A program made the translations under genes and the position numbers. The notes below the pieces were generated by a model. It was not told where the DNA came from, made no database searches, and saw only the letters and a list, made by a program, of their open reading frames with translations. From Sandaracinus amylolyticus (GTDB lineage Bacteria > Myxococcota_A > Polyangia > Polyangiales > Sandaracinaceae), in the NCBI RefSeq assembly GCF_000737325.1, contig NZ_CP011125.1, forward strand, positions 4,774,001 to 4,838,000: a stretch of DNA of 64,000 bases. The letters run 5' to 3'. Positions 20,318 to 30,089 of this stretch are shown here, one piece after another; position 1 is the first letter of the stretch, and each line of letters opens with the position of its first letter.

Positions 20318-20386
20318 CGAGGGGCAATGAAGCGCGTTCGTGGCGGACGAGCAACTCGCGGGATGGCACCGTAGACCGAGCGTGTG

Positions 20387-21982
20387 ATGGGCGAGGTGAT
20401 CCCGATCGAAGAAGCGCTGGCTCGGCCGATCGGGTCGCTCGTGCTGTGCGCGCTCGTGCCGCTCTTCACGGCCTGGGTGATGTGGGTCGTGCTGGTGCGG
20501 CGGTTGCCGGACGATCGGCGCGAGGAGGCGCGGGCCGTGGCGCCGTTTCGATCGGCGGCGTTCGTCGTGGGGATCGTGCAGATCCAGCTCGCGTGGATGC
20601 TCGGCGCGACCGCGCTCGGGCCGCGCTTCGTCGATGCGCCGGGGACGATCGCGGCCGAGCTCTTCGGCGCGGTGTGCGCGATCGTGGCGTTCTGCGCGGG
20701 CGGTGTGGGGCGGCTGATCGAGGAGCGATCGCGGACGTGGCGCGACGTGCGGGAGACCATCGCGCTGCGGCTGCGGATCGTGCCGTTCGTCGGTGGGCCG
20801 ATCGTCGCAGCGGGGCTCGCGTCGCGCCTGCCGGTCGTCGACGGCGACGCCGTGCGCTGGGAGGTCGTCGCGCTCGCGTTCGTGGTCGTCGCGCTCGGCG
20901 CGATGTTCGGTGGGCTCGCGCTCAGCGTCGCGACGCGCGCGATGGTGCCCGCGAGCGACAGCGTGCGCGCGATCGCGCTCGCCGCCGCGGAGGCCGAAGG
21001 CGTGCGGCTCGCGGGTGTCCTCCGGATGCCGACGACGCGGCTCGCGAACGCCGCCGCGATCCCGTGGGCGCGCACGATGATCGTCACCGATCGCATCGTC
21101 GCACTGCTGACGCCGAGCGAGCTGCGCGCGGTGCTCGCGCACGAGGCCGGGCACCTCAGCGAAGGGCCGTGGGTCGCGAGCGCGCGCCTCGGGACGGCGA
21201 TCACGCTGATCTTCGTGCTCACGACCGGCGTGCGCATCGGGAGCGCGCTGCACCCGGACGGCGCGCTGATCGCGATCGCGCTCGGGATCGTGATCGCGGT
21301 GCCGGGGATCTTGCTCGTGCGGCGCCTCGCGCGGCGCATGGAGGAGCGCGCCGACGCGCGCGCTCGATCGACGTCGGGCTCCGCGGCGCTCGCGGACGCG
21401 CTCACGAAGATCCACGAGGACGCGCGCGCACCGATGACGACGGGCGCGCGTCGCGTGCATCCCGATCTCTACGACCGGCTCGTCGCGTGCGGGCGCGATC
21501 CCGGGCCCCGCCCTGCCCCGCCGCGCACGCGCGTCGGGACGATCGTGGGGCTCGCGATCGGCGCGGGGCTCGTCACGACGTTCTTGCTGGTCGAGCACGT
21601 GACCGCGATCGCGATCGACGACGCACCGCTCGCGGGCGACGCATGGACGCGGCTGCGGATCGATCCGTGGGACTCGACCGCGATGCTCGCGTCGGCGTGG
21701 GAGACGCGGCGCGACGAGGATCTGGATCGCGCAGCGCGAGAGCTCGATCTCGCCGCGTGGATGGGCGCGCCGCGCGCGAACGTGCTCGAGCTCGAGGCCG
21801 AGCTCGCCGCGGCGCGAGGTGATTGTGCGAGCGCGCGCGCGCGCTTCGACGAGGCCCTCCGCGAGCGCTCGCGCGTCGCGTACGACGACCCGTGGCGTCC
21901 GCTCGAGCTCGGGGGATGGCACCTTCCGCCGACGCTCGTGACGGAGTGCGGCTACGGCGCCGACGACCCGCCGCGCGAATGA
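20387..21982 (+). CDS. M48-like membrane metalloprotease
   Basis: A protein of 531 residues (ATG at 20387; a GTG directly before it is possible). Four N-terminal membrane helices precede a domain with AHEAGHLSEG at about 251-260, the zinc-binding HExxH helix of the M48 (HtpX/Ste24-like) family. Two more hydrophobic helices follow, then a metal-ligand-like EERADARAR segment, another helix near 390-410 and a TPR-like C-terminal tail. M48 enzymes cleave membrane or exported proteins at the inner membrane. It lies 22 bases before the MoxR gene in the same direction and may be the first gene of that operon. Confidence 0.78.
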   Translation: MGEVIPIEEALARPIGSLVLCALVPLFTAWVMWVVLVRRLPDDRREEARAVAPFRSAAFVVGIVQIQLAWMLGATALGPRFVDAPGTIAAELFGAVCAIVAFCAGGVGRLIEERSRTWRDVRETIALRLRIVPFVGGPIVAAGLASRLPVVDGDAVRWEVVALAFVVVALGAMFGGLALSVATRAMVPASDSVRAIALAAAEAEGVRLAGVLRMPTTRLANAAAIPWARTMIVTDRIVALLTPSELRAVLAHEAGHLSEGPWVASARLGTAITLIFVLTTGVRIGSALHPDGALIAIALGIVIAVPGILLVRRLARRMEERADARARSTSGSAALADALTKIHEDARAPMTTGARRVHPDLYDRLVACGRDPGPRPAPPRTRVGTIVGLAIGAGLVTTFLLVEHVTAIAIDDAPLAGDAWTRLRIDPWDSTAMLASAWETRRDEDLDRAARELDLAAWMGAPRANVLELEAELAAARGDCASARARFDEALRERSRVAYDDPWRPLELGGWHLPPTLVTECGYGADDPPRE

Positions 21983-22004
21983 ACGCTGGTACGCTCGCGC
22001 GCGG

Positions 22005-23588
22005 ATGACGCGCTTCGGCAAGGTCTCGCAGGCACCGACGCTCCCCACGCCCGCAGCAGGGCCGCGCGACTGGGACGTCGCGGATCTCTACTCGGCGCCG
22101 CTCGAAGGAGCGATCGCGCTCGAGCACGCGGAGATCGCGATCGACGAGAAGCTGCGGCAGGCGTACTTCTGGCTCGTCAACAGCGCGATCCTCTCGCCCT
22201 TCTACGACATCGAGTACCAGGACGGGCCGAGCGCGAGCGTGGTGCTCGGAGACGCGAAGAGCCGGCTCGTGCTGCCGAGCGGGCAGAGCTACTCGTCGTT
22301 CGTGCTGCTGCCGCTGCTCAACCTCGCGGTGCGGCGACGATGTCTGCTCGTCGGTGGGCCGGGGCGCGGGAAAACAGCGAGCGCGATCCTGATGGGCGTC
22401 ATCGCGGGCTACTCGATCCGCGACGTGCAGCGCGCGATCCAGCACGGTCAGCCGCAGATGACGGTCATGGATCTGCTCGGCAACCCGCTGCCGAAGGATC
22501 TCGTGAACGCCGAGGATCCCGAGCAGATCCGCATCGCGTGGCGGAAGTGGCTCGGCATGCGCGTCAAGATCGTCGACGAGTACAACCGCATCCCGACGCG
22601 CACGCAGAGCGCGCTGCTGACCGTGATGGCCGACGGCTACGCGGAGGTGCTCGATCAGATCTACGAGTGCCCGGACAGCGCTTGGTACCTCACCGCGAAC
22701 GACGACGCGGGCGGTGGCACGTACCAAGTGATCGAGGCGCTGCGCGATCGCATCGACGTCGTGGTGAAGGCGCTGCACTTCAACCCGCGGCTGCTCGGTG
22801 ATCTGCTCGCGCGCATGGAGCAGGGCGTCGATCCTGCGCGCGCGGTGCCGCCCGAGATCGTGTTCACCGCGGCCGAGCTCGATCGCGCGGAGAAGGAGAT
22901 CCGCGCGGTCGTGATCCCGACCGCGATCCGGCGGCGGCTCGAGTTCTTCGCGTCGCAGTTCGAGCTGTGCGAGCCCGCGGGCGCGCAGTTCGAGTACAAG
23001 ACGAAGGACACGCTGAAGCTCTCGAACGTCGAGTGGCACGCGGTGATCGCGAAGGACGAGGGACGCGATCGCGTGAAGGACCTCGGCTCGCAGACGAAGA
23101 ACGGGCTCAGCGTGCGCGCGCTGATGACGTCGCTCGTGTTCACGAAGGCGATGGCGTACTTCCGCGGCGCGCGCGAGGTGTCGCTCGAGGACGTGCGGCA
23201 GATCCTGCCCTTCGTGCTGCACGACAAGCTCGTGCCCGATCTCGACTCGCCGTTCTTCGAGGCCGCGGGCAACGACGTCTATCGCGTGGATCGCATCGCG
23301 TGGATCCGGCAGCTCTTCGATCTCTCTTGCGCGGAGTACGACCGGCTCGATCTCGATCGCGACGATCCCGTCGGCGCGCTCCTCGCGCAGATGCGCGCGG
23401 GGCTCGAAGGGCTCGACGAGCGCGAGGTCCGCGCGCGCCTCGTGACGATCGAGCGAACGCTCGCGGAGCAGGCGAAGGGGCGCAAGCTGTACGGGCCGCT
23501 CTTCGACGACGCGCTCGTGCTCAAGTACGTGCACCAGCGCTACACGAACTACCTGCGCTGGCTCACGTGGAGGGGCGGGGCGCGATGA
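22005..23588 (+). CDS. MoxR-type AAA+ ATPase, long form
   Basis: The 527-residue protein has a MoxR AAA+ core: Walker A GGPGRGKT at 117-124, a Walker B region KIVDEYN with Asp191/Glu192 followed by RIPTRTQSALLTVMADG, sensor 1 TANDDAGGGTYQ and an arginine-finger region EALRDRID. MoxR ATPases remodel or load cofactors into client proteins, generally with a vWA partner, and a vWA protein is encoded two genes downstream. Standard MoxR is about 310-350 residues; here roughly 110 N-terminal and 170 C-terminal residues are extra. Its stop overlaps the next start (ATGA). Confidence 0.88.
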   Translation: MTRFGKVSQAPTLPTPAAGPRDWDVADLYSAPLEGAIALEHAEIAIDEKLRQAYFWLVNSAILSPFYDIEYQDGPSASVVLGDAKSRLVLPSGQSYSSFVLLPLLNLAVRRRCLLVGGPGRGKTASAILMGVIAGYSIRDVQRAIQHGQPQMTVMDLLGNPLPKDLVNAEDPEQIRIAWRKWLGMRVKIVDEYNRIPTRTQSALLTVMADGYAEVLDQIYECPDSAWYLTANDDAGGGTYQVIEALRDRIDVVVKALHFNPRLLGDLLARMEQGVDPARAVPPEIVFTAAELDRAEKEIRAVVIPTAIRRRLEFFASQFELCEPAGAQFEYKTKDTLKLSNVEWHAVIAKDEGRDRVKDLGSQTKNGLSVRALMTSLVFTKAMAYFRGAREVSLEDVRQILPFVLHDKLVPDLDSPFFEAAGNDVYRVDRIAWIRQLFDLSCAEYDRLDLDRDDPVGALLAQMRAGLEGLDEREVRARLVTIERTLAEQAKGRKLYGPLFDDALVLKYVHQRYTNYLRWLTWRGGAR

Positions 23589-24604
23589 TGATCGCGGGGC
23601 CGTTCGCGGACGCGCTGCGCGAAGGTCGCGAGCGGCACAACGCGCGGTTCGCGACGATCAAGCGAGCGTTCCCGTCGATCGATGGCGCGCGGTTCGCGAC
23701 GCTCCTCGTCGAGGTCGGCGATCCGATCGTGCGCGCGGTGCACGCGCTCGACGCGTCGCGGACGCGCGCGGCGGCGGACGCGGTGCACGACGTGCTCCTC
23801 GAGGTCGTGGCGCGCGAGCTCGACCGTACGCGGCCCGCGGTCGTCGACGTGCTGTGCGCGAACGGCGTGGGGCTCGCGCCGGTGATCGCGGACGCGCCGC
23901 GCCGGACGCTCGCGATCGTGGTGAACGCGACGTTCCGCGTGGCGAGCGTGCTCGGAACGTCGCTGGACGCGTGGCGAGGCAGCTGTGCGCGCATCGCGCG
24001 CGCGCTCGAGGATGATCGCGATGCGCTCGGCGACGCGCTCGTGGTCGCGGCATGGCAGGCCGGCGTGCCCATGCTGCGCGCGGCGGCGCTCGATGCGCTG
24101 CTGCGGCTCCCCGAGCGCGTGGCGCGCGCGGTGATCGCATCGCACGACGGTGCGCCGATCACGGAGATCGTGGCGAAGCTGCGCGCGGACGAGTGGTCGA
24201 TGCCCTCGCGCTTCGCGCGGCGTGGCGCAGCCGACCCGGTGTTCGTGCGCGCCGCGATCGTCGGCGGTTTCCGCGGGCTCGGCGGCCCGTTCGTCGCCCC
24301 GCCGCGCGCCGAGGTGCGGGGCGGGCGGCTCTTCGCGACCGTGGGCGACGAGCGGTTCGTGGTGTGGGCCGATCGCTACGGCGTGTCGCTCGAAGCGAGC
24401 GCGTCGAGCGATGCGAGCGAGACCACGACGAGCGATGCGCTCGCGCTGATGCACGACGGGCGCGTCGCGGGCTTCGGCGCGCGCAGCCCCGCGCCGCTCG
24501 TGCCGGTGCCGGTCGCGTCGTGGGCGTCGATCGGGCGCACGCTGATCGCGATCCCCGAGCGCTCGCATCGCGTGTGCGTGATCGGGCTCGCGGAGTCGAC
24601 GTGA
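23585..24604 (+). CDS. Unknown protein between MoxR and vWA genes
   Basis: I do not recognise this 339-residue protein. The first 230 residues look like paired amphipathic helices (for example VVAAWQAGVPMLRAAALDAL), possibly a HEAT-like or other alpha-solenoid. The last 80 residues look beta-rich (FATVGDERFVVWADRYGVSL). There is no signal peptide or membrane helix. The ATG overlaps the MoxR stop and its own stop overlaps the vWA start, so it is made in step with both. It may be an adaptor or a client of the ATPase. A relation to the small beta-domain partners of described MoxR-vWA ternary systems is conceivable but not shown. Confidence 0.7.
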   Translation: MMIAGPFADALREGRERHNARFATIKRAFPSIDGARFATLLVEVGDPIVRAVHALDASRTRAAADAVHDVLLEVVARELDRTRPAVVDVLCANGVGLAPVIADAPRRTLAIVVNATFRVASVLGTSLDAWRGSCARIARALEDDRDALGDALVVAAWQAGVPMLRAAALDALLRLPERVARAVIASHDGAPITEIVAKLRADEWSMPSRFARRGAADPVFVRAAIVGGFRGLGGPFVAPPRAEVRGGRLFATVGDERFVVWADRYGVSLEASASSDASETTTSDALALMHDGRVAGFGARSPAPLVPVPVASWASIGRTLIAIPERSHRVCVIGLAEST

Positions 24605-26361
24605 GCGAGCTCGAGGCGCTGCGCGCCAAGTGGCTCGCACGATGGGAGGACGCGCTCGCGTGCTGGAGCCGCTACACGCGCCTCTCTGCGCCGCGGATCT
24701 GCGTGACGCGCGAGGAGCTCGAGCGCGAGAAGATGTCGACGGCGTTCGCGCTGATTCGGCTCGTCGATCACGCGGTGGCGATCGACCTCGCGCAGATCGT
24801 CGACAAGGGGCTCGAGTCGCACGCGCTCGCGGTGCTCGCGCACGAGATCGGGCACCACGTGTACTGTCCCGGCGATCTCTCGGATCACGCGCGGGTGATC
24901 GCGCGGGTGCGGCGCGCGCTGCCGACGCGGGAGCACCTCGCGCCGTTCGTGTCGAACCTGTGGAGCGATCTGCTCATCAACGATCGCCTGCATCGCTCGG
25001 CGGGCGTCGACATGGCGGCGGTGTATCGCGCGCTCGGGCTCGCGGAGCGCACGAACGCGGTGTGGTGGATCTACCTGCGCACGTACGAGCTCTTGTGGGG
25101 GCTCACGCGCGGATCGCTCGCGGAGCGCGTCGATTCGAGCACGCCCGAGGGGATGCAGCTCGAGGGCGACGCGCAGCTCGCCGCGCGCGTCGTGCGCGCG
25201 TACTCGAAGGACTTCGTGCGCGGCGCGGGGCGCTTCGCGTCGTTGCTGCTCGGGCACCTGCTCACCGACGATGCGGCAGGCGCGCGACAGCGGTGGGCGA
25301 TCCTGAACGACACCGAGTCGATCGGCGCGGGCGGCGAGGTCGACGGGCTCAGCGAGGTCGACGAGGGCGAGGACGACGTCCTGCATCCCGCCGAGGATCC
25401 GGAGGTCACCGGCCGCGACACGCCGCGCGACGAGACTCCGAGCGCGAGCCCGCGGTCGCGCGGTGTGATGCGCACGGGCACGAAGACGCCGCGCGGGCCG
25501 CGCGAGTACGGCGATCTGCTGCGCGCGATCGGCGCGTACACCGACGAAGACGACGTCGCGATCCGCTACTACACCGAGCAGGCGCGGCCGCACCTCGTGC
25601 CCTTCCCGCGGCGCGAGAGCCCGCGCGCGACCGAGCCGCAGCCCGAGGGGCTCGAGGTGTGGGAGCCGGGATCGCCGATCGAGCGTGTGGACTGGGTCGA
25701 GAGCGTCGTGCGCAGCCCGGTCGTGATCCCCGGCGTGACGACGATGGAGCGCACGTACGGCGAGTCGCCGGGCGCCGATCCCGCGCGCGAGCCGCTCGAT
25801 CTGTACGTCGGCATCGACTGCTCGGGATCGATGGGCAACCCGCGGCTCGTGCACAGCCACGCGATCGTCGCGGGCGCGGTGCTCGCGCTCTCGGCGCTGC
25901 GAGCGGGCGCGCGCGTGAAGGTCGTTCTCTCGGGCGAGCCGGGTCGGACGATCTCGACGCCGGGGTTCGAGCGTGACGCTCGCACCGTGATGAAGCTGCT
26001 GACGTCGTACCTCGGCACCGGCACCGCGTTCGGGATCCATCGCCTGCGCGACACGTTCGCCGACGACTGGCCCACGCGCCGCAGGGCGGTGCACGTGCTC
26101 GTCGTGACCGACTCCGACGTGTTCGGGCATCTCGGCGCGGAGCGCGAGGGCCGCAGCGGGTGGTCGATCGCGCGCGACGCGATCGAAAGAGCGCGCGGCG
26201 GTGGCACGTACGTGCTGCGCCTCGATCCGAGCTCGCATGCCGCCGACGTCGCGCGGATGCGGCAGGACGGCTGGGACGTGCACCACGTGCGCGCGCTCGA
26301 GGAGCTCGTCGCGTTCGCGCGTGCCTTCGCGCGTTCGCGGTACCATCGCGCGCGTCGATGA
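24601..26361 (+). CDS. Metallopeptidase-vWA fusion protein
   Basis: A 586-residue protein with two parts. Near residue 80 is AHEIGHHVYCPGD, with the HExxH zinc motif at 81-85, followed by a helical region containing NLWSDLLINDRLHR, as in predicted metallopeptidases of the DUF2201/COG3864 kind. After an acidic linker (about 240-290), the C-terminal vWA domain has a full MIDAS: DCSGSMG with Asp406, then GTGTAFG and VTDSDVFG. vWA proteins act with MoxR ATPases as client recognition or delivery factors. The GTG start overlaps the preceding stop. Joining a protease-like domain to the vWA in one chain links the pair to the M48 gene upstream. Confidence 0.85.
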   Translation: MSELEALRAKWLARWEDALACWSRYTRLSAPRICVTREELEREKMSTAFALIRLVDHAVAIDLAQIVDKGLESHALAVLAHEIGHHVYCPGDLSDHARVIARVRRALPTREHLAPFVSNLWSDLLINDRLHRSAGVDMAAVYRALGLAERTNAVWWIYLRTYELLWGLTRGSLAERVDSSTPEGMQLEGDAQLAARVVRAYSKDFVRGAGRFASLLLGHLLTDDAAGARQRWAILNDTESIGAGGEVDGLSEVDEGEDDVLHPAEDPEVTGRDTPRDETPSASPRSRGVMRTGTKTPRGPREYGDLLRAIGAYTDEDDVAIRYYTEQARPHLVPFPRRESPRATEPQPEGLEVWEPGSPIERVDWVESVVRSPVVIPGVTTMERTYGESPGADPAREPLDLYVGIDCSGSMGNPRLVHSHAIVAGAVLALSALRAGARVKVVLSGEPGRTISTPGFERDARTVMKLLTSYLGTGTAFGIHRLRDTFADDWPTRRRAVHVLVVTDSDVFGHLGAEREGRSGWSIARDAIERARGGGTYVLRLDPSSHAADVARMRQDGWDVHHVRALEELVAFARAFARSRYHRARR

Positions 26362-26939
26362 AGAGCGGGCCCGACATCGCGACGCTCGTGCGCCGGCTCG
26401 CCGAGACGCCGGAAGACTTCCTCGCGGCGCCGCGCATCGGCGCGAGCGGCGTGATCGACGTCGCGGCGATCGTCGGCGACGTGCTCTGGGAGGTGTCGGG
26501 ACAGCCGATGGATCGCTCATCGCTGACACCGCTCGACGAGGCGCACGCGTCGCGCGCGAACCTGCTGCGGCTGCGCGCGATCGCCGCGTGGCTGTTCCAC
26601 GAGCCCTCGCTGCGACGGCCCGAGCTCGCGAAGGCGATGCTCGCGTTCCTGCTCGCGAAGGAGCTCGAGGAGCTCGCGACGCTGGTCGATGCCTCGCTCT
26701 TCGTGCGCGATCCCGAGCGACGCGAAGAGCTCGCGCGTCGCGCGTTGCTCGCGCTCGAGATGGTGCCCGACGGCGAGACCGAGGCACAGGCGCGCGATCG
26801 TCTCTCGTCGCTCGACTCGGTCGAGCGCACGCGGGTGATCGAGGCCGCGCGGCAGGCCGAGGCGCGAGCGCGGAGAGTGCGCGTGGAGATGGCGCGCAAG
26901 GCGGCCGAAGAGGCCGCTGCGAAGGTGTCGCGCGAATGA
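26358..26939 (+). CDS. Unknown helical protein of MoxR-vWA operon
   Basis: A 193-residue soluble protein that I cannot assign. It appears wholly helical; residues 70-150 are Leu/Ala/Glu-rich helices and the last 45 residues form a highly charged Arg/Glu/Ala helix suited to a coiled coil. There is no cysteine, signal peptide or catalytic motif. Both ends overlap neighbouring genes by four bases (ATGA), which argues that it is a real and stoichiometric member of the operon. A linker or small subunit is the simplest reading. It does not look like a RiPP precursor because it is too long and lacks a distinct core. Confidence 0.68.
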   Translation: MKSGPDIATLVRRLAETPEDFLAAPRIGASGVIDVAAIVGDVLWEVSGQPMDRSSLTPLDEAHASRANLLRLRAIAAWLFHEPSLRRPELAKAMLAFLLAKELEELATLVDASLFVRDPERREELARRALLALEMVPDGETEAQARDRLSSLDSVERTRVIEAARQAEARARRVRVEMARKAAEEAAAKVSRE

Positions 26940-28348
26940 CCGAGCTCGAGCCGCCCTCGCCCGAGCTGCTGCGTCTCTCGCCGCTCGCCGATGCGCGCGC
27001 AGCAGCGCGGGTGCGACGGATCGAGCAGCATCCGAGCGCGCCGATCTGGCGATGGCGCGCGGGAGATCGCATCGACGGCGAGGATCTCCGCGCGATCGCG
27101 GCGTTCGAAGCGACGCTGCGTTCACGCCGCGAGGACCTCGCGCACGATCCGAGCGATGCGCCGCCCGAGCGCGTCATCGCGTGGCTGCGATCGATGCGTG
27201 ATCGCGTGCCGATCTTTCGCGCGCGGATCCGCGAGGGGATCGATCTCGCGCGCTCGTTCTCCGAGATCGCGACGTCGTCGCGCGAGGATCTCGCGCTCCG
27301 TCCCGAGCTCCTCGTGCCCGACGACGCGCCGCTCGAGCGCATGATCGTGTACCGCACGGCGGGCACGACGGGGCACGCGCTGCTCGTGCCGCACGATGCG
27401 CGCGCCGCGTCGTGTTATCTGCCGCTGGTGCGCGTCGCGCTCGAGCGCTGGGGCGTGGACGCGCCGTGCGGCGCCGACGAGATCGGCGCATTCAACGTCG
27501 GCGCGCAGCGCAGCACGGTGACGTACGCGTGCACGCTCTCGGCGTGGGGCGGGACGGGATTCGCGAAGCTCAACGTCAGCGCGGGCGAGTGGCATCGCGA
27601 GCGCGATCCCGTCGACTTCTTCGCGGATCTCGCGCCGCGCCTGCTCACCGGGGATCCGATCTCGTTCGCGGAGGCGATGCGCGTCGGGATCACGTCGCGC
27701 CCGCGCGCGCTGCTCACGACCGCGGTCGCGATGAGCGACGCGCTGCGCGATCGTCTGCGCGCGCACTTCGGCGCCCCGGTGATCGACTGGTACTCGCTCA
27801 CCGAGACCGGGCCGCTCGCGTACGCGTGTCGCGACGGTCGTGGCCATCACGTGCTCAGCCCCGACGTCCACGTCGAGATCGTCGACGAGCAGGGCGCGCC
27901 GATGCGCGATGGCGAGCGCGGCGAGGTCACGGTGACCGGCGGGCGCAATCCGTTCGTGCCGCTGCTTCGTTATCGCACCGGGGACTTCGCCCGGATCGAG
28001 CGCGCGCGGTGCACCTGCGGCGATCCCACGCCGCGCCTCTGCGATCTCGAGGGCCGCGCACCGGTGCCGCTGCGCGCGAACGACGGCGCGCTCGTGAACA
28101 CGGTCGACGTCGGGCGTGCGCTGCGGCCCTTCCCGCTCGTGCAGCACGCGCTCGTGCAGCGCGCCGATCGTTCGATCGACCTCGTCGTGCGCGCCGCACC
28201 GGGCGGCGTCGATGCGCGCGCGATCCACGACGCGCTCGTCGCGCTGTTCGGCGACGTCGGCATCGAGGTGCGCTTCGATGCGGCGCTCGGAGATCGCAGC
28301 GAAGGCAAGGTCCTGCCCTACCGGAGCGAGCTCCCGTTCGACGAATGA
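26936..28348 (+). CDS. PaaK-like adenylate-forming enzyme
   Basis: A 470-residue member of the phenylacetate-CoA ligase/CapK-like branch of the ANL superfamily. The phosphate-binding motif is YRTAGTTGHA at 139-148, the core Tyr-Glu motif is DWYSLTETGPLAYA, the Asp motif is LLRYRTGDFARI, and CTCGDPTPRLCDLEGR is the Cys-containing loop seen in PaaK relatives. The C-terminal catalytic Lys is in EGKVLPY. It should activate a carboxylate as its AMP ester and pass it to CoA or another acceptor. It is sandwiched between the vWA group and two radical SAM genes with 4-base overlaps at both ends, so its product may feed them. Confidence 0.87.
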   Translation: MTELEPPSPELLRLSPLADARAAARVRRIEQHPSAPIWRWRAGDRIDGEDLRAIAAFEATLRSRREDLAHDPSDAPPERVIAWLRSMRDRVPIFRARIREGIDLARSFSEIATSSREDLALRPELLVPDDAPLERMIVYRTAGTTGHALLVPHDARAASCYLPLVRVALERWGVDAPCGADEIGAFNVGAQRSTVTYACTLSAWGGTGFAKLNVSAGEWHRERDPVDFFADLAPRLLTGDPISFAEAMRVGITSRPRALLTTAVAMSDALRDRLRAHFGAPVIDWYSLTETGPLAYACRDGRGHHVLSPDVHVEIVDEQGAPMRDGERGEVTVTGGRNPFVPLLRYRTGDFARIERARCTCGDPTPRLCDLEGRAPVPLRANDGALVNTVDVGRALRPFPLVQHALVQRADRSIDLVVRAAPGGVDARAIHDALVALFGDVGIEVRFDAALGDRSEGKVLPYRSELPFDE

Positions 28349-29049
28349 AGCCGCTCGATCATCCGTACGAGGGCCGCCCGCATCGCGTCTACGCGACGCT
28401 CACGAACCACTGCAACCGCAGCTGTCCGTGGTGCAGCACGTGCTCGTCGCCGCGCGGATCGACGTTCTTGATGCTCGACGATCTGATCGCGGCGCTGCCC
28501 GAGCACGGCGCGTTCGAGGTGCAGCTCGAAGGCGGCGAGCCGACCACGCACCCCGAGTGGCTCTCGTTCGTCGATCGGATGCGCGCGCATCCGCGCTGCA
28601 CGCGCGTCGTGCTCTGCACGAACGGCGCGGTGATCCCGCGCGATCGGGAGCGGCTGCGCGCATGGATCGCGCGGCTCGGTGCGCCGATCACGATCAAGCT
28701 CTCGGTCAACCATCACCTGCTCGAGCACGATCCCGGGCTCGTCGCGCTCGCGCGCTCGATGCGCGACCTGATCGTGGAGCTCGGTGCAGATCGACTGCTG
28801 GTGCTCAACGTGCGTCGCCGCCGCGGCGTCGACGACGACGATGCCCGCGTGGTGCGCGCGATCGAGGACGCGGGCCTGCTCCCCCACGCGAACGTGTTCT
28901 TCCTCCAGCGCTACGGCTTCGCGCGCGACGAGGCTTCGTGGGAGCCGCCACACCTCGTGGGCCACGATTTCCGCTTCGTGAGCCCCGACGGTCGCGTGCT
29001 CGGGCCCGATCTGATCGCGCGCTCCGAGGCGATGCGGGTGCTCCGATGA
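28345..29049 (+). CDS. Radical SAM protein, short
   Basis: A 234-residue radical SAM enzyme. The 4Fe-4S site is CNRSCPWC, with Cys23, Cys27 and Cys30 in the normal CX3CX2C spacing and a further Cys33 beside it. The SAM-binding GGE motif appears as EGGEPTTH, and VVLCTNGA marks the next strand. There are no C-terminal cysteines, so no SPASM or twitch auxiliary cluster. The protein is shorter than most (the barrel may be incomplete). It overlaps both neighbours by four bases. The adjacent radical SAM gene suggests that the two act in sequence or as a pair. Confidence 0.88.
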   Translation: MKPLDHPYEGRPHRVYATLTNHCNRSCPWCSTCSSPRGSTFLMLDDLIAALPEHGAFEVQLEGGEPTTHPEWLSFVDRMRAHPRCTRVVLCTNGAVIPRDRERLRAWIARLGAPITIKLSVNHHLLEHDPGLVALARSMRDLIVELGADRLLVLNVRRRRGVDDDDARVVRAIEDAGLLPHANVFFLQRYGFARDEASWEPPHLVGHDFRFVSPDGRVLGPDLIARSEAMRVLR

Positions 29050-30086
29050 TCGACCTACGCCATCGGCGCGCGAAGAGCGCTGCGTTCGATCTCGCGACGA
29101 ACAGCACCGCGCGCGCGACGCGCACGATCGAGCTCTGGGGCCAGCCGCGCACGATCTACGCGAACGCGAACCTCTCGATCTACAGCGCGCAGCAGTGCAA
29201 TGCGCGCTGCGCGTTCTGCGTCGAGGAGCTGCGCCCCGCGTCGCGCGGCACTGCGCTCGACGCGCAGAAGACGATCGAGCACGACGACGCGCGCTGGCTC
29301 GATGGCCTCGCGCGCGTGCTCGACGCGCTCGAGCCCCTCGATCCCAGCGTGTCGATCACCGGCGGCGAGCCGAGCAAGGACGCGCGCCTTCCGCGGGTGC
29401 TGCGCCTGCTCGCCGAGCGCGGCGCGCGCAAGCGCACGATCACGACGAACGGCTCCGGCCTCTTCGACGTGCGCGAAGGACGCACCGTGCTCGAGTGGAT
29501 CACCTCGACCGGCGTGCGTCACCTGAACATCAGCCGCGCGCATCCCGACGACGCGCGCAACGCGAAGCTGATGGGCTTCTCCGATGCGCCGACCCCGCGC
29601 GATCTGCGCGAGATCGTCGCGAGCGCGCGCGCGGCCGGCACGCGCGTCCGCCTCTCGTGCGTCCTCGTGAGCGGCGCGATCGAGACCCTCGATCACATCG
29701 TCGAGTACCTCGACTTCGCGCGCTCGCTCGGCGTCGACAACGTCGTGTTCCGCCAGCTCATGAAGACCGATCCGCGCACCACGGCGACCAACCACGTGGT
29801 GCTCTTCTCGGATCGTCGCCGCGTCGCGCTCGAGCCGCTGCTCGATGCGATCTCGCGCGATGCGCGCTTCGAGGTCGTGAAGCAGGTCGTCGGCTACTAC
29901 TACTACGTCGAGGTCCATCGCCATCGCGGCGTCGACGTCGTGTTCGAAGAAGCCGATCTCGCGCGGCTCGAGGACACCAAGCGCGACGGCGTGATCCACG
30001 AGCTCGTGTTCCACCCGAACGCGACGCTCGCGTCGACGTGGCAGCCCTGGGACGGTGTCCTCGGGCCGCCGGTCACGCCGCGCTGA
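29046..30086 (+). CDS. Radical SAM protein, MoaA-like core
   Basis: A 346-residue radical SAM enzyme with CNARCAFC (Cys51, Cys55, Cys58), the SAM motif SITGGEPSKD, RTITTNGSGLF and LNISRAHPDDARNAKLMG, all in MoaA-like order. It lacks the C-terminal CX2CX13C cluster of MoaA and any SPASM cysteines, so it is not a molybdenum cofactor enzyme of the standard type. VVGYYYYVEVHRHRGVDVV in the C-terminal part is an unusual Tyr/His-rich segment that could hold a substrate. It ends the seven-gene overlapped operon and converges on the enoyl-CoA hydratase with a three-base gap. Confidence 0.88.
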   Translation: MIDLRHRRAKSAAFDLATNSTARATRTIELWGQPRTIYANANLSIYSAQQCNARCAFCVEELRPASRGTALDAQKTIEHDDARWLDGLARVLDALEPLDPSVSITGGEPSKDARLPRVLRLLAERGARKRTITTNGSGLFDVREGRTVLEWITSTGVRHLNISRAHPDDARNAKLMGFSDAPTPRDLREIVASARAAGTRVRLSCVLVSGAIETLDHIVEYLDFARSLGVDNVVFRQLMKTDPRTTATNHVVLFSDRRRVALEPLLDAISRDARFEVVKQVVGYYYYVEVHRHRGVDVVFEEADLARLEDTKRDGVIHELVFHPNATLASTWQPWDGVLGPPVTPR

Positions 30087-30089
30087 GGA

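Follow-up and report, generated by a model that had tools for sequence, protein, structure and literature searches.

A seven-gene MoxR-vWA block of Sandaracinus amylolyticus as a possible variant of an undescribed system with a constant platform and exchangeable payloads

The protein pairs CbbQ/CbbO, NorQ/NorD and CoxD/CoxE, in which a MoxR hexamer acts together with a vWA/MIDAS partner, remodel metal- or cofactor-dependent clients. The MoxR-vWA ternary conflict systems combine a MoxR and a vWA protein with conserved components and exchangeable payloads; among those of the FtsH class, a subclass with a radical SAM gene is known (Kaur et al., 2020; PMC7159879). In Rea1/midasin, the MIDAS grips its ligand (Ytm1/Rsa4) via one essential glutamate (PMC6624252).

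We analyzed a stretch of 64,000 nucleotides of the Sandaracinus amylolyticus genome (the window), which carries seven open reading frames, g1 to g7, at positions 22005-30086. All features described here lie on the forward strand and are numbered by their position in the window. All six junctions between these genes are 4-bp overlaps (ATGA in five cases, GTGA in one), as had been reported in the preliminary description. With 41 nt of upstream sequence they form a unit of ~8.1 kb (21964-30087), and exactly this block is lacking in a genome of the same genus (G002), where window position 21963 joins 30088 and the flanks are 90-92% identical on both sides. In G001, G003 and G005, the M48 peptidase gene and the enoyl-CoA hydratase gene likewise adjoin without the block. 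The seven-gene block is one unit which was gained or lost as a whole. The M48 peptidase gene, located 22 nt upstream, was considered as an eighth member and rejected; it lies outside the block and is not conserved at other loci. Scans for promoters, terminators and repeats around the block gave nothing informative.

The first gene, g1 (22005-23588), encodes a MoxR-type AAA+ ATPase of 527 aa (AAA_3 1.8e-7, AAA_lid_2 2.6e-6) with Walker A, Walker B (DEYNR) and LRDRID motifs. Its 58 relatives are mostly 60-72% identical (median 66%), and the Walker motifs are present in all 54 relatives scored. The product of g3 (24601-26361; 586 aa) consists of an N-terminal HExxH (zincin-like) region and a C-terminal vWA domain, the latter with a weak match (VWA_2 3.4e-4). 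Its MIDAS motif DxSxS (DCSGS, residues 406-410; 25816-25830) is invariant in 38/38 relatives; the classical MIDAS threonine position is not firmly placed in the alignment. Since AAA_3 and AAA_lid_2 exceed the cut-off in g1 and DxSxS is invariant in g3, the pair belongs to the MoxR-vWA systems in the broad sense. The motif HEIGHH (residues 81-86; 24841-24858) represents the HExxH signature, which is kept in 37 of the 38 relatives (L062 is the exception), and N119, D123 and N127 of g3 are invariant. No peptidase family matched this region above the cut-off, M48 appearing only at E 0.09.

The remaining two proteins of the block's first half, g2 (23585-24604; 339 aa) and g4 (26358-26939; 193 aa), had been called unknown, and neither matched a known family: a recurrent Pfam match was not found among 43 members of g2, nor a Pfam family among 38 members of g4. 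Structure prediction of both, as proposed beforehand, gave AF2 models at pLDDT 94 and 96, respectively, but no convincing fold match. The model of g2 has a helical N-terminal and a beta-rich C-terminal half, while the helical g4, a proposed adaptor, ends in a 39-residue helix. Foldseek searches with the two models returned nothing at E<=0.001. A second structural alignment placed WD40-like pieces on the C-terminal half of g2 (Z ~7) and reached Z<=4 for g4; both values are within background and no fold is claimed.

Downstream of g4, g5 (26936-28348; 470 aa) encodes a PaaK-like adenylate-forming (ANL) enzyme (AMP-binding 4.5e-9). It scores 36 bits against PF00501 (cut-off 29.9), which places it in the PaaK/ANL group, and the P-loop and R-Y-R-T-G-D motifs are found in 35/35 members. 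It stays below every PaaK family cut-off, and its best NCBIfam match, the DVU_1553-family AMP-dependent CoA ligase NF045666 (1.6e-31), reaches 109.6 of the 300 bits of the cut-off. A zinc-ribbon-like CxCG insert (28010-28021) occurs in all seven adenylases of the variant with g6-g7, or in one case g6 only (called type II below), and in one other among the 35. The last two genes encode radical SAM proteins, a short one of 234 aa (g6, 28345-29049; Radical_SAM 2.4e-7) and a MoaA-like one of 346 aa (g7, 29046-30086; Radical_SAM 9.9e-11). Both retain CxxxCxxC, in 7/7 and 6/6 members, and are 55-63% and 60-66% identical across phyla, respectively. No PDB relative of g7 was found at 1e-3, and both proteins fall far below the NCBIfam model viperin_w_prok for prokaryotic viperins (17.1 and 23.8 bits, cut-off 180). 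The domains assigned earlier thus hold throughout, i.e., AAA_3/AAA_lid_2 in g1, HEIGHH and a weak vWA domain in g3, AMP-binding/PaaK in g5 and Radical_SAM in g6 and g7.

Outside S. amylolyticus, the order g1 to g5 is kept in dozens of genomes. About a dozen phyla are represented, with this order in the majority of their complete loci, and it was seen again in a second set of Myxococcota; a distant five-gene form is present at L098. The occurrence is patchy, with 33 of 379 Myxococcota (distant forms included) and 6 of 150 Flavobacterium genomes. The type II variant with g6-g7 occurs in five phyla, in one case with g6 only, and the radical SAM pair adjoins the MoxR/vWA genes at L016, L038, L041, L043, L045 and L088. 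Conversely, g6-g7 and g5-(g6)-g7 are also found without MoxR genes, so the link to the platform is not obligatory, and stand-alone clusters of g6, g7, a methyltransferase and an AAA_28 gene are present at L084 and L085. Judged by gene order, the core is g1-g5, and the two radical SAM genes mark a variant. The preliminary description had regarded the MoxR/vWA pair as locked to the adenylase and both radical SAM proteins; this applies to the adenylase, and to g4 as well, but not to the radical SAM pair, which is absent from most loci.

The possibility that unrelated genes are grouped here by local chance had been given its own test in advance. Gene overlaps are common in high-GC genomes, which would favor such a reading, but the adenylase lies beside MoxR/vWA nearly everywhere and the radical SAM pair does so at the six loci named above. 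Chance grouping is refuted and its probability is practically nil. Because the order is conserved in distant phyla and the block is cleanly inserted, the seven genes, with the g1-g5 core elsewhere, almost certainly form one system. The expectation that no described system has this gene set was borne out in the collections searched. The five-gene core is not named in any of the family, defence or literature collections, and no publication combining MoxR, vWA and PnuC was found, subscription papers being outside the scope of that search; MoxR, vWA and radical SAM occur together in one publication.

Most loci without g6-g7 carry PnuC and NadR in the same operon (type I), often, though not always, together with a different SPASM-type radical SAM gene. 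PnuC and NadR function in the uptake of nicotinamide riboside and its conversion to NAD. The PnuC neighbors pass TIGR01528 (111.1 and 58.6 bits, cut-off 42.45) and PF04973 (192.4 bits, cut-off 27.3). The NadR-like neighbors match nicotinamide-nucleotide adenylyltransferase, with 163.6 bits for TIGR01526, which is below the equivalog cut-off of 341, and contain HxGH in 18/18 and Walker A in 17/18 cases. At L057, seven genes are tightly spaced and g3-g4-g5-PnuC-NadR are joined by 4-bp overlaps. PnuC-NadR and g6-g7 appear to exclude each other (Fisher p 1.8e-4, or about 0.004 in the dereplicated set). PnuC and a complete NadR were not found in six type II genomes, whereas four type I controls scored; most of these genomes are MAGs, so the absence could reflect incompleteness, but the genome of S. 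amylolyticus, one of the six, is complete. At L014, a single g1-g2-g3 precedes two cassettes, first g4-g5 (type II)-g6 and next g4-g5 (type I)-NadR, and at L043 and L045 g1-g3 are divergent from g4-g5-g6-g7. The sequences show that g1-g3 and g4 are constant, that g5 takes the payload position and that the accessory genes vary by type. An architecture of platform and payload is probable, also in view of a fusion gene that takes the place of g5 at L139 and L140 (see below). It is plausible, somewhat short of an even chance, that the block arrived by horizontal transfer and represents the type II form of a MoxR-vWA system not described before, in which a constant platform serves exchangeable payloads.

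The C-terminus of g4 may indicate how platform and payload meet. The last two codons (Arg-Glu; 26931-26936) encode a conserved end: the final residue is glutamate in 37 and aspartate in one of 38 copies, and glutamate or aspartate in 15/15 of a second set, i.e., acidic in 53/53 copies whatever the payload. Further invariant residues are E124, R127, E140 and E185, and g4 is found at loci with or without any radical SAM gene. This end could possibly dock on the MIDAS of g3, a tentative proposal, somewhat short of an even chance, that is a motif argument. The MoxR hexamer and the vWA domain of g3 would then work like the ring and MIDAS tip of Rea1/midasin, with the acidic residue as sixth ligand of the metal ion. 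ATP hydrolysis would pull on or remodel g4 with the bound g5 enzyme, by which the payload might be switched on or released or its product loaded. The g5 enzyme is assumed to activate a small acid, which would depend in type I on the metabolism of NAD/nicotinamide riboside and in type II on the radical chemistry of g6-g7, the two modules standing in for one another. A conceivable analogy for the link to NAD is the NPN-like (LarB/LarE) nickel cofactor. It is rather unlikely, though conceivable, that the genes represent a fifth self-contained MoxR-vWA class, in which g4, with its acidic C-terminal residue, presents the adenylase to the ring and in which PnuC-NadR and g6-g7 can replace each other as suppliers of one activated small molecule or of two equivalent ones; if true, this would add a hitherto unseen cofactor, signal or protein modification linked to NAD. 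The same conserved g4 end, together with the retained HExxH and the invariant N119, D123 and N127, would also suit an AAA+ protease-like machine in which the MoxR ring delivers g4, or other proteins tagged by a C-terminus like that of g4, to the g3 zincin domain. The missing peptidase family match and the absence of HExxH at L062 argue against this, and it leaves g5 and the supply modules unexplained, so that we consider it improbable.

The biological role has to be weighed between two readings. At L139 and L140, an isochorismatase-TCAD9-phosphatase fusion lies directly after g4 in the slot of g5; a TCAD9 protein is part of the operon at these loci and at L142, and the fusion is located directly upstream of g1 at the type II loci L038 and L041. 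TCAD9 is absent from the window and from most loci. It is a domain of the vWA-MoxR-VMAP systems (PMC10910872). By eye, the isochorismatase domain of the fusion, a conceivable nicotinamidase, lacks the usual cysteine. L025 and L046 contain an insertion gene with macro-like and Nuc_deoxyrib_tr domains, and domains of this kind are known from described conflict systems linked to NAD and ADP-ribose (PMC7159879, PMC9503650). Owing to its patchiness, its gain as a block and the displacement of g5 by the TCAD9 fusion, the unit has the look of an accessory, conflict-type element. It is a possibility, at the level of roughly one reading among three, that it is an NAD-centred anti-phage or conflict system, in which the MoxR-vWA switch arms the enzyme payload on attack, nicotinamide riboside import and NadR restore NAD, and the add-on domains, macro-like/deoxyribosyltransferase and phosphatase, act on molecules resembling ADP-ribose. 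The PnuC-NadR linkage, the TCAD9 and DSP-phosphatase fusion, the insertion gene and the patchy horizontal spread agree with it. Against it, the core has no NADase or toxin domain, type II has no NAD module, and the MoxR proteins, at 60-72% identity across phyla, evolve much more slowly than typical conflict components. A known defence system was rejected: PADLOC 2.0 gave no defence model for any member, only a weak generic viperin similarity of the radical SAM proteins (1e-6), and the flanks contain generic kinases without enrichment of defence genes. An origin from plasmids, phages or viruses was likewise rejected, as no copies were found in phage, plasmid and viral-contig collections. The conflict-type alternative raised in the preliminary description has gained from the TCAD9-phosphatase fusion.

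Equally possible is a maturase for a cofactor or protein modification without any defence role, in which MoxR-vWA, in the manner of CbbQ/CbbO, NorQ/NorD and CoxD/CoxE, loads a product of g5 and the radical SAM enzymes (in type I, possibly one derived from NAD) onto a client whose gene lies elsewhere. The slow evolution of g1 and g3, the intact catalytic motifs of all enzymes, the biosynthetic appearance of g5-g6-g7 and of the L084/L085 clusters, the link to nicotinamide riboside salvage and the negative defence-library and phage searches suit this reading, while the patchy spread, the block gain and the displaced g5 do not, and no client enzyme gene recurs as a neighbor at about 50 loci. Taken together, an inducible response to stress or conflict is preferred to a housekeeping role and has close to an even chance, and cofactor or protein modification is nearly as likely.

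Through the widespread five-gene core with its two new protein families, g2 and g4, from about a dozen phyla, MoxR-vWA machines are connected with acid-activating, NAD-salvage and radical SAM enzymes. What the partners of MoxR-vWA grip can be tested through the single residue at the end of g4, and natural controls exist in the empty site of G002 and in L014 with its two cassettes in tandem.

Among described proteins, phenylacetate-CoA ligases (PaaK) are the nearest solved structures to g5 (1.7e-23) and share its intact ANL motifs, but g5 does not lie in a gene cluster for aromatic catabolism. With CbbQ/CbbO, NorQ/NorD and CoxD/CoxE the locus has the ATPase and its MIDAS partner in common; it differs by the additional conserved g2, g4 and g5 and by the absence of genes for Rubisco, NO reductase and CO dehydrogenase from its surroundings. 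The likeness to Rea1/midasin, an AAA+ ring with a MIDAS gripping its ligand via one glutamate, is an analogy of mechanism and not of membership, since Rea1 is a eukaryotic single-chain ring acting on pre-ribosomes. Within the ternary systems, the VMAP class does not apply, as no VMAP domain was found in the 43 g2 and 38 g4 members or the window proteins, nor does the FtsH class, g1 being the only AAA+ protein of the block and no double FtsH gene recurring elsewhere. The beta-propeller class does not fit a g3 that stops right after its vWA domain (residues ~400-580 of 586), and the iSTAND class does not fit an all-helical g4 and the missing NTPase match in g2 and g4, although g2 might conceivably contain a STAND domain of very divergent sequence. 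The ternary systems of Kaur et al. (2020; PMC7159879) resemble the locus in their overall composition and share TCAD9 with some of its relatives. The linkage to PnuC-NadR has not been described for them, and here the vWA domain shares its protein with an HExxH region, both g2 and g4 constitute new families and a PaaK-like adenylase belongs to the core.

The seven-gene overlapping operon of the preliminary description was recovered at 22005-30086, with a 4-base overlap at each junction. It consists of g1 (22005-23588; MoxR ATPase, AAA_3/AAA_lid_2 in Pfam), g2 (23585-24604; no Pfam match), g3 (24601-26361; HExxH and a weak Pfam vWA match), g4 (26358-26939; no Pfam match), g5 (26936-28348; PaaK-like adenylase, AMP-binding) and two radical SAM (rSAM) genes, g6 (28345-29049) and g7 (29046-30086), both assigned to Radical_SAM. 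The closest NCBIfam models are DVU_1553/PaaK-type ligases for g5, and g6-g7 fall in the neighbourhood of MoaA, in both cases below cut-off. PADLOC contains no model for any of the seven genes, a weak viperin similarity being the sole exception.

In a genome of the same genus, both flanks are 90-92% identical and window position 21963 is joined directly to 30088, exactly g1-g7 being absent from an otherwise matching site. There the two flanking genes, for an M48 peptidase and an enoyl-CoA hydratase, lie side by side, as they do in three further genomes (G001, G003, G005). The simplest reading is that the 8.1-kb block was acquired in a single gain within the Sandaracinus amylolyticus lineage. 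The gene for the membrane M48-type peptidase (20384-21982), which adjoins the insertion site and lies next to the enoyl-CoA hydratase gene in relatives, was rejected as a block member: it is located 22 nt upstream, outside the block, and was not found at other loci.

Scanning with g1 revealed 58 loci, in most of which full-length identity is 60-72%; they come from genomes labelled at submission as Verrucomicrobiota, Planctomycetota, Myxococcota, Bacteroidota, Pseudomonadota, Gemmatimonadota, Thermodesulfobacteriota, Acidobacteriota, Spirochaetota, Melainabacteria, Riflebacteria, KSB1 and Actinomycetota. A profile re-scan found the order g1-g2-g3-g4-g5 in most complete loci, and it recurs in a second set from Myxococcota; L131 and L144, whose contigs match those of L017 and L019 in length, are probably the same records as these and not independent. 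The proposal of one conserved system holds for g1-g5, whose order is kept across distant phyla, but not for both rSAM genes, which occur at few loci; most of the other loci carry PnuC-NadR. A more distant five-gene form (L098) has no rSAM. In one Myxococcota locus (L136:6715-17198), further copies of g3 and g4 come after g1-g5, along with a divergent NadR-PnuC, so that part of the platform (g1-g3 plus g4) is duplicated. Four distant MoxR plus HExxH/vWA loci (L099, L100, L149, L150), in which no PaaK-like enzyme was detected, are possibly a sister system; an rSAM-like protein follows in L099, L100 and L150, and a further uncharacterised gene (345-368 aa) is present in L099 and L150.

The system occurs patchily, in 33 of 379 Myxococcota (distant forms included) and 6 of 150 Flavobacterium, and phyla are intermixed on the MoxR tree, with a planctomycete nearest to the window copy. 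Patchiness and gain as a block favour a conflict or stress role, since described conflict systems share these themes as well as add-ons, displacement and a NAD link (PMC7159879, PMC9503650). However, g1 and g3 evolve slowly, the defence library gave no match, the flanks are not rich in defence genes, and phage, plasmid and viral collections held no copies. A cofactor or modification role is rated nearly level.

PnuC and NadR, for nicotinamide riboside uptake and conversion to NAD, occur at most other loci, often inside the same tightly spaced operon. 4-bp overlaps join g3-g4-g5-PnuC-NadR in Riflebacteria (L057), and in Flavobacterium the pair lies just upstream of g1. A SPASM-like rSAM is found at about a third of loci, mostly between g3 and g4. 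The g6-g7 loci (type II: the window, L016, L038, L041, L043, L045, L088) all lack PnuC, NadR and the SPASM-like rSAM; in G369 a type II locus is apparently split between contigs (L144 ends in g4, L086 begins at g5). Tallied by hand, PnuC and/or NadR is present at 0/7 type II loci versus 36/47 others (Fisher p 1.8e-4; 0.004 once close relatives are merged). Whole type II genomes gave neither PnuC (0/6) nor full NadR (0/6), whereas four controls of type I, the PnuC-NadR form, score. As PnuC-NadR and g6-g7 replace one another, we infer that they may be different routes to something required by g5 or its product. On the g5 tree the type II proteins cluster together (76/92, modest support), and they share a CxCG insert. 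Type II is scattered on the g1 tree, which suggests that cassettes move from platform to platform.

Stand-alone g6-g7 pairs in a related Myxococcota family (L084:10280-13830, L085:11036-14413), possibly a separate biosynthetic cluster, are followed by a gene with C-terminal Methyltransf_24 and an AAA_28 (NadR-kinase-like) gene. The unassigned N-terminal region of the Methyltransf_24 protein has a HGTD motif and is possibly ADP-ribosyltransferase-like. These g6-g7-methyltransferase-kinase clusters and the enzymology of the components speak for the cofactor or modification role, the NAD linkage for the conflict or stress role.

The motifs are intact: Walker in g1 (54/54), DxSxS of the vWA metal site (MIDAS) in g3 (38/38), HExxH in g3 (37/38), adenylate-forming (ANL) motifs in g5 (35/35) and CxxxCxxC in g6 and g7. 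The predicted g4 structure is confidently all-helical with a final helix of 39 residues. Its last residue is Glu in 37/38 and Asp in 1/38, and Glu or Asp in 15/15 of the second set, irrespective of payload; the same comparison found no conservation of the last residue in g2, g3, g5 or NadR. In Rea1, the MIDAS metal ion is contacted by the acidic residues Ytm1 E80 and Rsa4 E114 (PMC6624252). The acidic end of g4 would likewise suit the MIDAS metal ion of g3, and on account of this fit g4 is proposed as an adaptor, which the vWA domain of g3 may grip and the MoxR ring may remodel, with g5 as its usual cargo.

Platform and payload (g5) appear separable at several loci. L014 carries one g1-g2-g3, then g4-g5(type II)-g6 and g4-g5(type I)-NadR, and in L043 and L045 g1-g3 lie on one strand with g4-g5-g6-g7 divergent on the opposite strand. 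At three loci g5 was not detected; its slot after g4 holds a fusion of isochorismatase-like, TCAD9 (7.6e-48) and DSP-type phosphatase domains (L140:14714-17017, L139:3419-5725, L142:5652-8030), 5 nt downstream of g4 in L139 and L140. The same fusion, apparently frame-broken, is located just upstream of g1 in type II L041:7483-9941 and L038:2542-4946, and is thus part of the wider system. Among conflict systems, the vWA-MoxR-VMAP type has TCAD9 as one of its domains (PMC10910872). Two planctomycete loci (L025:1723-2832, L046:11570-12592) contain, between g1 and g2, a gene with a C-terminal Nuc_deoxyrib_tr domain and an N-terminus that we read as macro-like. Displacement of g5, the TCAD9/phosphatase add-ons and the macro/deoxyribosyltransferase add-ons all point to a conflict or stress role. 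In loci of the TCAD9 type, a gene between g3 and g4 (L140:12013-12582, L142:4144-4716) weakly matches TY-Chap3, a peptide-binding chaperone.

Compared with open papers, the system fits none of the four described MoxR-vWA ternary classes, nor the CbbQO, NorQD and CoxDE types, in agreement with the earlier view that no described system with the full set is known. It is in the broad sense that the g1-g7 system is a MoxR-vWA system.
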